Shown: positions 5,751 through 15,711 of the stretch, piece after piece
How positions within the stretch are numbered: position 1 is the first letter of the stretch
Layout: each line of letters starts with the position of its first letter
Translations under genes and position numbers: made by a program
Source of the DNA: an uncultured Bacilli bacterium
GTDB lineage: Bacteria > Bacillota_I > Bacilli_A > RF39 > UBA660
DNA: 33,487 nt
Reading direction: 5' to 3'
Assembly: GCA_947598345.1 (NCBI GenBank)
Contig: CANQFF010000003.1
Span: 1 to 33,487, forward strand
The notes under the pieces: model-generated
What the model was told of the DNA's origin: nothing
Database searches by the model: none
What the model saw: only the letters and a program-made list of their open reading frames with translations

Positions 5751-7352
5751 TTATTTTATTAATTTTTCAAATGAATTTGATTCATCATTTCTTAAAGATA
5801 CTGAAATATCTTTAAGATTAGGTATATAAACTACTTTCGCAGATCTACAAACTGGTAAAAAATTACCTACAACCTTAACTAAATTTGGAAGTAATATTTT
5901 TTTTAATTTTTGATTACGCACCATAAAACTAAATTCAGCTTTTTTTAATTTTGGAAGTACTAATTCTTCTAGACTTTCATTTAAATTTAAAAAATTACTT
6001 CCAGTTTTCTCCAAATTTGGAAGAAATAATTTTATTATAGTATTATTTTTAAATAAAAAATTATGCCCTACCTTTTTCAACATTGGTAGTGATATTTGGT
6101 TTAAAGTATTATTTTTAAACAAGAAATTATCCCCAACTTCTTCCAATTTTGGAAAATTTAAATTGATTAACTTTTGATTATCATATAAAAAGTTATCTTC
6201 TATTTTTTCTATATTTGGTAACGATAAGTTTTTTAAATCTTTGTTACTAAGCAAAAAGCATGAACCTATTTCAGTTAAATTAGGAAGTAATAATGTCTTT
6301 AAATATTTATTATGATATAAAAAATTATTTTTTGCTCTTTTAATATTACCATTATATAAACTTATTAATCTATTTCCAATATCTAAAGTTAATATAATTA
6401 TTTTACCTTCCCTTGGGGTAATTGTTATAACCTTTTTTTCTCCATTTCTTACTACTTCTATTTTTTCTATTTTACCTATACTTTCTATAAATGAATCGTC
6501 GATATTTTCATCATATGATCTTATTACTTTTTTTTGTATATCAATTATAAATGTTTCCATTAATATATATCTTTCTTTTGGAAATCTTTTAGCTTCAAAA
6601 TTTTCTATTACTACATTATTTGGGCAATAATATATATTATTAATTTCAATATTATATTTGTAATATCTTCCATCTCTTGCTCGTACATAATTAGGTATTT
6701 CAAAATTTTTTGAGACTTTGTTCTGCTTTATACCATAGTGTACTTCAAAACTTTTTGTTAATCCTTCTATTATATTATCCAAATTATTCGAAAATGTTGC
6801 ATCTGGATTAGCTACTGTATGATTATATCTATTTTTTATTGATAATGTGTGTGAACGATCCCGTGTAAACTGTATACTTATTACAGATGTTCCATATCTA
6901 TCTTGTCTAGTTGGTGAACTAAAATCCTCTCTTTTTATATCATCAACATCTTTTTTTACTGCGAAAAATACTATACAATCTTTTAATCTTCCACCTCTAA
7001 ATGTACATAATTCTTCTCGCTCAGAATAATATTTTCTAAAATTTTGTATATCTTTTTCTTTTTCACACTTATATAATGTATATCCAGCTTCATCTAATAA
7101 TTCTTCTGGTGTTTTAGATAATTTTTTTTCTTTGTCATCAATATCTATTAAACTATATATGTAATCTTTAAAAGAATCTACCATATTATTTTTTATTATA
7201 TCATAATAAAGTTCACGACTAAAAGAAAAATTAGATTCCAATAACTTAGGTAATAATCCTTCTTTTTCTAATAAAGTTGGAAATAATTCTCTACATAAAT
7301 AACAAAACTGTTCTCCATACTTTTTCTTAATTATTTTTAAATCTTGATTCAT
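5751..7352 (-). CDS. Leucine-rich repeat protein with a distinct N-terminal domain, located between addB and addA
   Basis: 533 aa; C-terminal half has about 7 tandem 22-aa repeats of form xxLxxLxLPNLxKIGxNFLxxN; N-terminal domain with RQDRYGTSVISIQFTRDRSHTLSIKNRYNHTVANPDATFSNNLDNI. Confidence 0.8.
   Translation of the reverse strand: MNQDLKIIKKKYGEQFCYLCRELFPTLLEKEGLLPKLLESNFSFSRELYYDIIKNNMVDSFKDYIYSLIDIDDKEKKLSKTPEELLDEAGYTLYKCEKEKDIQNFRKYYSEREELCTFRGGRLKDCIVFFAVKKDVDDIKREDFSSPTRQDRYGTSVISIQFTRDRSHTLSIKNRYNHTVANPDATFSNNLDNIIEGLTKSFEVHYGIKQNKVSKNFEIPNYVRARDGRYYKYNIEINNIYYCPNNVVIENFEAKRFPKERYILMETFIIDIQKKVIRSYDENIDDSFIESIGKIEKIEVVRNGEKKVITITPREGKIIILTLDIGNRLISLYNGNIKRAKNNFLYHNKYLKTLLLPNLTEIGSCFLLSNKDLKNLSLPNIEKIEDNFLYDNQKLINLNFPKLEEVGDNFLFKNNTLNQISLPMLKKVGHNFLFKNNTIIKLFLPNLEKTGSNFLNLNESLEELVLPKLKKAEFSFMVRNQKLKKILLPNLVKVVGNFLPVCRSAKVVYIPNLKDISVSLRNDESNSFEKLIK
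5847..6308 (-). repeat. Seven tandem 66-bp (22-aa) LRR units, with degenerate units on both flanks
   Basis: Units KYLKTLLLPNLTEIGSCFLLSN / KDLKNLSLPNIEKIEDNFLYDN / QKLINLNFPKLEEVGDNFLFKN / NTLNQISLPMLKKVGHNFLFKN / NTIIKLFLPNLEKTGSNFLNLN / ESLEELVLPKLKKAEFSFMVRN / QKLKKILLPNLVKVVGNFLPVC. Confidence 0.9.
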
Positions 7353-13818: not shown

Positions 13819-14461
13819 ATGCCGCAGAACTATAATTTAATACAACATTTCCAAAAGTTACTGTAAATGGTCCATCTGCACGGTTACCACCACTTGCATA
13901 AGTTGCTGTTATAACTATAGCTTCACTAGTTGCTTTATTAAGTGTATGTGGTGAGGTAGAAGCAAATGTCTTTGTAGCTGTTACAGCAGTCTCACTACCT
14001 ACTTTAACAGATAATGAAATAGAACTACAAGCAGATGTTACTAATGCTGCTGTTGCTCCTCCACCAGATGTCGCAGCACAAGATTTTGTTCCAAATGTAA
14101 TTGATTTTAAATATGCCACATATTCACCTGCATTTCTCGCATAAAATGACCATGTAACAGTTTGTCCCGGTTCAGTAAATGATGCAGCCAAACCTGTTGC
14201 TGTCGGATTGCTAGTGTTACTTAATGTAGCATCAGTACCAGTCGCACTACCAGTAACTGTTGGTTTTACTTTCGTACTTACATCAACAGATGTAGATGAT
14301 GTTGAGAAATCAACATTAAATGATGAAGCACTTGGCGTTACATTTGCAGTTGCTGAAATTGTTAATGTACTTGAAAAAGCTGCAAAACCTATTCCCAATC
14401 CTACCACTGCAACAGCTAACGCTACTACCGCTATAACTTTTGAATTATTATTTTTTATCAT
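13817..14461 (-). CDS. Secreted/surface protein with N-terminal signal anchor (TasA/camelysin-type or pseudopilin-like architecture), Ser/Thr/Ala-rich
   Basis: 214 aa; MIKNNNSKVIAVVALAVAVVGLGIGFAAFSSTLTI signal segment, low-complexity S/T/A-rich beta-type ectodomain; SD AGAAGGAG upstream of ATG. Confidence 0.75.
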   Translation of the reverse strand: MIKNNNSKVIAVVALAVAVVGLGIGFAAFSSTLTISATANVTPSASSFNVDFSTSSTSVDVSTKVKPTVTGSATGTDATLSNTSNPTATGLAASFTEPGQTVTWSFYARNAGEYVAYLKSITFGTKSCAATSGGGATAALVTSACSSISLSVKVGSETAVTATKTFASTSPHTLNKATSEAIVITATYASGGNRADGPFTVTFGNVVLNYSSAA

Positions 14462-14506
14462 AATTTTATCACTCCTTCTTATTTCAGTACTTTCTACTGT
14501 AATTCA

Positions 14507-14538
14507 ATTATAGCATGCCCCCCCCCCCAGCTTGTCAA
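14507..14538 (-). promoter_or_regulatory. Putative phase-variable promoter: TTGACA - AGCT(G)11CATGC - TATAAT with extended -10 TGC
   Basis: -35 at 14538-14533; poly-G (poly-C on + strand) 14518-14528; -10 at 14512-14507; spacer 20 nt. Confidence 0.8.
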
Positions 14539-14586: not shown

Positions 14587-14608
14587 AAAAAAAGAACTAT
14601 TAGTTCTT
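14587..14608 (-). terminator. Rho-independent terminator downstream of pgsA
   Basis: Reverse strand AAGAACT-AAT-AGTTCTT followed by TTTTT. Confidence 0.7.
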
Positions 14609-14615
14609 ACATTGA

Positions 14616-15218
14616 TTATTTATCCATTATTAAATATTTATTTAAAGAATAATATTGTATTCCAGATATAACTGATAAGATAGTAGCAACAAATAATAAT
14701 ACTTCTGCAATTGAAATATTCCATAATTCAAATGGTAAATTATAAAATAATGTCAATACTATACCAACCATAAGAGTTGCAGTTTTAATTTTTCCAGACT
14801 TTATTGCAGCCACAACTTTACCTTTACTAGCAGCTAACATTTTTATTGAGTTAACAACGCTATCTCGAATTATAATTACAACTGGTATAATTGGATGTAT
14901 AAATCCTTGTGCGGCTAATATTATAAGTACGGAATTAACTAAAATTTTATCTGCAATGGCATCTACTAACTTACCAAAATCAGTTACAAGATTATATTTA
15001 CGAGCAATATAACCATCTAAAAAATCTGTTAGTGACGCTATTATAAATAATATTCCAGCTATAATATATTTTAAATCAACAACAATTGATTCGTTAATAA
15101 ACACTTTAGGTATTTCAATTCCAAGCATGGAACTTATATTTCCACTTCCAAGTAAAATAATAATTATTAATATAGAGATAATTATTCTACTTATAGTTAA
15201 TTTATTAGGCAAATTCAT
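14616..15218 (-). CDS. pgsA: CDP-diacylglycerol--glycerol-3-phosphate 3-phosphatidyltransferase
   Basis: MNLPNKLTISRIIISI; LTDFLDGYIARKYNLVTDFGKLVDAIADKIL (CDP-alcohol phosphotransferase motif). Confidence 0.95.
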   Translation of the reverse strand: MNLPNKLTISRIIISILIIIILLGSGNISSMLGIEIPKVFINESIVVDLKYIIAGILFIIASLTDFLDGYIARKYNLVTDFGKLVDAIADKILVNSVLIILAAQGFIHPIIPVVIIIRDSVVNSIKMLAASKGKVVAAIKSGKIKTATLMVGIVLTLFYNLPFELWNISIAEVLLFVATILSVISGIQYYSLNKYLIMDK

Positions 15219-15711
15219 ATGTAATAACTCCCTCACTACTTACTATAGTATCTGAAACTGTTACATCTTCTTTAGTTATAAGTAAAATTATTATATAAAC
15301 AATTATTATTACTACAAGGATTATACCACCAATTATCAATATTCTAGGTATAGGTCTTTGTTGTTTTTTTTCTACTGTATAAGGTGAAGATATTTTTACA
15401 GTTTTTAATTTTTTTTCTTTTTTTCTTCTTTCTCTTTCAGCTTTTTTTATATCATCTATAGATATTTTAGAAGTAAAATCAAATAGATATTCATTAAATT
15501 CTTCTAGCATTTCATCATAATCTAATCCAAGATATTTAGAATAATTCTTTATAAACATCTTTAAATAAAATATATCCTTAAATGCCTCTTTATTGCCATC
15601 TTCAATATTTTCTATTTGTGATGCTCGTAACTTTAAATCTTGAGCCGCTTCTTCTATGGTAATTCCCATAGATTCACGAGTTTCTTTTAATTTTTCTCCT
15701 ATCTCTTTCAT
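15205..15711 (-). CDS. rodZ: RodZ-like helix-turn-helix membrane protein
   Basis: 168 aa; KLKETRESMGITIEEAAQDLKLRASQIENIEDGN HTH, single TM near the C-terminus, next to pgsA. Confidence 0.8.
   Translation of the reverse strand: MKEIGEKLKETRESMGITIEEAAQDLKLRASQIENIEDGNKEAFKDIFYLKMFIKNYSKYLGLDYDEMLEEFNEYLFDFTSKISIDDIKKAERERRKKEKKLKTVKISSPYTVEKKQQRPIPRILIIGGIILVVIIIVYIIILLITKEDVTVSDTIVSSEGVITYEFA

Follow-up and report, generated by a model that had tools for sequence, protein, structure and literature searches.

A poly-G tract in the promoter spacer of an exported-protein gene of uncultured gut Bacilli as one of a lineage-wide set of putative phase-variable promoters

Introduction

At single loci, a few pathogens are known to switch transcription by means of a poly-G tract in the promoter spacer. 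The −35 element of one of these loci, porA of Neisseria meningitidis, is weak. The porA promoter and the locus described here have in common that a poly-G tract is situated in the spacer of a surface-protein promoter; however, porA is a single locus, whereas the promoters studied here combine an exact −35 with an extended −10 consensus and precede genes for pilins or beta-rich proteins. In porA, the tract tunes the transcription of a surface protein, and an optimal spacer of 17 nt was given for it in a study of Treponema pallidum tp0126 (PMC7864442). The tp0126 gene encodes an OmpW homologue, and its promoter contains a poly-G tract between −35 and −10 with an optimum of 17 nt in total (PMC7864442). 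It resembles our locus in that a poly-G spacer precedes an outer-surface gene, but it is one gene of a GC-rich pathogen, in contrast to tens of copies in the tiny AT-rich genomes of uncultured gut Bacilli. An earlier note on the DNA analyzed here had named both porA and opc as precedents. The porA comparison holds, but the opc comparison is less close, because the poly-C tract of opc has been placed at the −35 and not purely within the spacer (PMC7864442); porA and tp0126 are therefore the closer precedents.

Two further systems are related in part. In Bifidobacterium breve, deep sequencing revealed that slippage in G-tracts controls the sortase-dependent pili of a gut commensal (PMC9187656). 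Slippage in G-tracts and pili of gut commensals are shared with the present case, but the B. breve tract is intragenic and acts via the reading frame, not via promoter spacing. The Campylobacter jejuni phasome comprises many hypermutable poly-G/C tracts that control surface traits (PMC8355987). The likeness is that many G/C tracts occur in one small AT-rich genome; the difference is that the C. jejuni tracts are described as both intragenic and intergenic, whereas the element that recurs in the present case is a G tract in a promoter spacer.

Results

Anatomy of the promoter

The window, i.e. the whole stretch of DNA that was analyzed (33,487 bp, 25% GC), is contig C3 of a 935,895-bp assembly of 80 contigs that is 88% complete. 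Read directly from the sequence, the minus strand from 14538 to 14507 is TTGACA-AGCT-G11-CATGC-TATAAT, with a spacer of 4+11+5 = 20 nt (Table 1). The ATG of the downstream gene, at 14461, lies 45 nt past the −10. The earlier note had described two consensus hexamers, a TGC extension and a homopolymer wholly inside a 20-nt spacer, and this description is exact. It had also remarked that no comparable homopolymer occurs elsewhere in the window, and G11 is indeed the sole G or C run of at least 7 nt. Its calculation that a loss of two to four Gs would bring the spacer to 16-18 nt was likewise correct, as these are the lengths obtained with G7-G9; the 17-nt spacer is obtained with G8.

The full promoter pattern had no match in 100 dinucleotide shuffles of the window. 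These shuffles, together with the reversed-pattern and poly-C controls reported below, ruled out a chance origin. An inverton was also considered and rejected; only imperfect, AT-rich, chance-like repeats were present, and no clean pair of arms brackets the promoter.

Table 1. Features of the window promoter and its surroundings, and the other poly-G or interrupted poly-G promoters of the same genome
Feature	Position	Strand	Remarks
−35 hexamer TTGACA	14533..14538	-	from sequence
G11 homopolymer in promoter spacer	14518..14528	-	from sequence; C11 on the plus strand
Extended −10 TGC-TATAAT	14507..14515	-	TGC 14515-14513, TATAAT 14512-14507
Ribosome-binding site AAGGAG	14472..14477	-	from sequence
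Target gene, 214 aa	13817..14461	-	N-terminal hydrophobic helix (residues 7-27), beta-rich exported domain
Terminator-like hairpin and T run, 3' of the upstream gene	14587..14608	-	read from sequence
Upstream gene, CDP-alcohol phosphatidyltransferase (pgsA-like)	14616..15236	-	
Poly-G promoter, window	C3		spacer 20 nt
Poly-G promoter	C74		spacer 20 nt; precedes a paralogue of the window protein
Poly-G promoter	C23, contig end		spacer 20 nt; precedes a gene starting MKNKGFTLI, a prepilin start
Promoter with G6	C29, contig end		spacer 15 nt
Promoter with interrupted tract GGGGAGGGGG	C23, near 2530		spacer exactly 17 nt; precedes another paralogue of the window protein
Promoter with interrupted tract G6AG4	C15:7145		spacer 21 nt; precedes a prepilin

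The target gene

The hairpin that follows the pgsA-like gene was below the GC threshold of the terminator scan. Given this terminator-like structure, the 214-aa target gene has its own promoter and appears to depend on the poly-G promoter. The gene 3' of pgsA differs between species, so that a comparison of orthologous tracts at the same site was not possible across species; in one genome (G012), another poly-G promoter and a pilin gene stand there.

Six paralogues with 40-46% identity, alignable along the length of the 214-aa protein, are encoded elsewhere in the genome. In profile searches the protein matched no Pfam or NCBIfam family. An AlphaFold2 model (pLDDT 82.9) consists of an N-terminal helix and a beta-rich domain, and a Foldseek search with this model found no convincing relative. 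The earlier note had called the target a secreted, surface-type protein, with which the hydrophobic helix and the beta-rich domain agree; the localisation is predicted only. Membership of the TasA or camelysin fibre proteins was considered but is not supported. In addition to the lack of a Pfam or NCBIfam match, the TasA fibre 8aur was found only at rank 30 (E 0.028, TM 0.30), and because this match is weak the assignment was not made. Elsewhere in the window (5751-7352, minus strand) lies a gene for a protein that has BspA-type leucine-rich repeats (PF13306) and so belongs to a surface-type family.

Distribution of poly-G promoters

The whole assembly contains three G runs of at least 7 nt (G11, G10 and G10), and all three lie within TTGAC..TATAAT spacers; for runs of at least 10 nt, the first-order expectation is about 0.02. 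With shorter and interrupted tracts included, the genome has six such promoters (Table 1). The two interrupted tracts resemble locked versions, with one spacer at the optimum and the other off it, but this is an inference. Seven other isolated G6 runs are not in promoter spacers; most of them lie within apparent coding sequence.

Genomes of the order were searched with the strict pattern TTGAC-N0-8-G7+-N0-15-TATAAT. It was present in 78 of 386 genomes and 34 of 119 genera, with up to 42 matches per genome. The reversed pattern, used as a control, had no match in any of the 386 genomes of the order, and the poly-C equivalent had none in 30 genomes; the coding strand therefore always has the G version of the run. 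Between 37 and 42 copies are present in some genomes of 1.1-1.3 Mb, and one of the richest (G046) has 44 when G5 is allowed. Of the 699 G runs of at least 7 nt in 28 rich genomes, 431 are located in strict spacers. A class-wide sample outside the order yielded one or two copies in 7 of 343 genomes. Within the genus of the window, relaxing the −10 to TANNNT gave matches in 8 of 16 genomes, or 9 of 16 when G004 is counted; the collection from these nine genomes comprises 72 poly-G promoters, 69 of them with an extended −10 (TGn). Among the matches listed for named genomes, the same design was found in gut Bacilli and Clostridia MAGs from rabbit, roe deer and goat, and also in Candidatus Ancillula, Treponema, Helicobacter and Campylobacter.

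The window comes from a MAG, and several of the copies are found at the ends of contigs, as would fit a sequencing or assembly artefact produced by poly-G read ends or mis-assembly. However, the window tract sits between exact −35 and −10 boxes with genes on both sides, and equivalent tracts recur in dozens of species from many independent projects, always with G on the coding strand. We give this explanation almost no weight. As far as the presence of the tract is concerned it is already refuted; the exact count in the consensus of any MAG may be off by one.

Many poly-G promoters are about 200 nt or less from contig ends (G010 and G259; e.g. G010:C6:29523, C29:17189 and C69:6020). This suggests that shared leaders or tract heterogeneity break assemblies at these promoters, and the promoter counts are thus probably undercounts. 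Two of the named genomes are rich in copies. The Candidatus Ancillula MAG Gsp477_bin129 (L073, L075, L079 and other JAIRWY loci) has many poly-G extended −10 promoters and is possibly an independent case far from Bacilli. In the rabbit-gut Clostridia MAG Lapin-032__bin86 (L077, L096, L101 and other CANQOB loci), lipoprotein-like genes starting MNTKKWL are preceded by many copies that have G8 and a spacer of 15 nt. A phage origin was rejected, as only one IMG/VR contig contained the pattern and none the window's own flank. This sole viral contig with a poly-G extended −10 pattern is IMGVR_UViG_3300017705_000711 (L219, 9093-9121).

Tract lengths and spacer lengths

In the family sample, 15 groups of promoters were found that have identical flanks and different G counts within a single genome. 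In one genome (G006), TTGACA-Gn-CAATGA-GATAAT occurs with n = 11, 11, 13, 13, 14, 18 and 18, and further same-flank groups in the genus have G counts of 10/11/13 and 13/16. Copies of this kind, alike in their flanks and unlike only in the number of Gs, are the trace that slippage leaves and, at the level of assembled consensus, they show that the tracts change length. Their ranges are as wide as the step that the window promoter would need to reach the optimal spacing. Variation within a population was not seen, and no reads were available; as the sample comprised one genome per species, orthologous tracts could not be compared within species.

The spacers of 151 listed poly-G promoters have lengths of 16 nt (42 promoters), 17 nt (9), 18 nt (17), 19 nt (34) and 20 nt (27), with few outside this range. 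In contrast, 17 nt is the most frequent spacer of the 65 ordinary TTGAC..TATAAT promoters without a G run at these loci (30 promoters). The difference at 17 nt is significant (Fisher p ~2e-11) when the relatedness of copies within a genome is ignored; because of this relatedness the counts are not independent. Evaluated per genome, 17 nt is the commonest spacer in only 2 of 30. In the genus, 47 of 72 promoters have spacers of 19-20 nt and six have 17 nt. In a few genomes (e.g. G316), contracted tracts can be missed because at least seven Gs were required; allowing G5 added few promoters. A 16-nt spacer is near the optimum, so that the respective copies need not be off.

The modal spacers of 16 or 19-20 nt, instead of 17 nt, would also be expected if the G run were an invariable structural element, whose stiff, A-like form allows such spacers to work without any switching. 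In several genomes, moreover, nearly all of the many copies share one G count (e.g. G9 in most of those of G046), whereas tracts that drift freely might be more scattered. However, G counts behind identical flanks differ by up to seven, some tracts within one genus are interrupted and its spacers range from 12 to 24 nt, and the poly-G spacers of tp0126 and porA retain the 17-nt optimum (PMC7864442). We therefore regard a fixed structural tract as very unlikely and prefer slipped-strand variation of spacer length.

Targets of the poly-G promoters

In the family, the median distance from the −10 to the start of the downstream gene is 27 nt. A hydrophobic segment at the N-terminus is present in 27 of 31 family targets versus 18 of 39 control ORFs and, among the matches listed for named genomes, in 63 of 87 targets versus 220 of 661 control ORFs. 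In the genus sample, 25 of 27 readable targets have such a segment and 23 have a prepilin motif; the sampled targets are mostly type IV prepilins. Pfam and NCBIfam confirmed the prepilin N-terminus (N_methyl, TIGR02532) in genus targets. Several of these N-termini are fused to PARCEL/DUF285 leucine-rich repeats, to DUF6273 or to a region with a weak FGE-sulfatase match; other targets are signal-peptide proteins with a C-terminal membrane anchor. Diverse pilin-adhesin fusions behind near-identical promoters and leaders were seen at the G010 and G006 loci (L253-L281). An exception to the rule of exported targets is a conserved 390-aa protein (MTTGEFNAIIDKIND...) without an obvious signal peptide, which follows a poly-G promoter in two genomes (L043 in G296 and L044 in G120).

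The recurrence of one element, with G on the coding strand, in front of many exported-protein genes could alternatively mean that the tract serves mainly to bind a regulator common to these genes, which would then form a conventional regulon. Yet tract length and the distance to either hexamer vary freely between genomes, and the flanks are not conserved across genera. We consider a regulator site highly improbable.

Discussion

We conclude that the G11 tract of the window is very probably a contingency element for slipped-strand phase variation of transcription, and that it belongs to a lineage-wide set; the switching itself is inferred, as neither reads nor RNA were available. Replication slippage would add or remove Gs, and the length of the spacer would thereby set the strength of a sigma-A-type promoter that is predicted to be optimal at G8. 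Because G8 gives 17 nt, the 214-aa gene is predicted to be weakly transcribed or silent with the G11 tract of the assembly, and a minority of cells would have it switched on. Some basal transcription may persist owing to the consensus extended −10, an inference as well; since a TG-extended −10 may work partly without a −35, the change could be graded rather than on/off. Slippage in living populations, a dependence of transcription on spacer length in this organism and a biological benefit are likewise inferred.

The slippage logic of the earlier note is supported by the many copies, the same-flank differences in G number, the constant G on the coding strand and the avoidance of 17 nt, all of which were observed directly, as was the anatomy; switching and an effect on RNA remain inferences. 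That note saw a single switch, but the window promoter is one of a repertoire.

Although the device itself is known from porA and tp0126, its lineage-wide use in uncultured gut Bacilli, with dozens of copies per small genome in front of genes for prepilins and other exported proteins, appears to be unreported in the literature searched. In this search, which left out most subscription journals and preprints, no report was found that combines the poly-G spacer mechanism with RF39, gut Bacilli, Clostridia or Ancillula.

Across the genome and the lineage, the promoter set would control pilin-like proteins and other exported proteins stochastically and independently of one another. A more far-reaching version, which we put forward only tentatively and regard as possible rather than probable, is that each poly-G promoter independently gates a different pilin-fused adhesin or exported protein, and that the flanks are adjusted in such a way that, at the usual tract length, most of them are off and a few on in each cell. 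Gut commensals would then have a repertoire of antigens and adhesins that is based on promoters. If switching is confirmed, chance would determine much of the surface of these commensals in each individual cell, with consequences for colonisation, for encounters with phages and the immune system, and for the reading of metagenomic consensus genomes.
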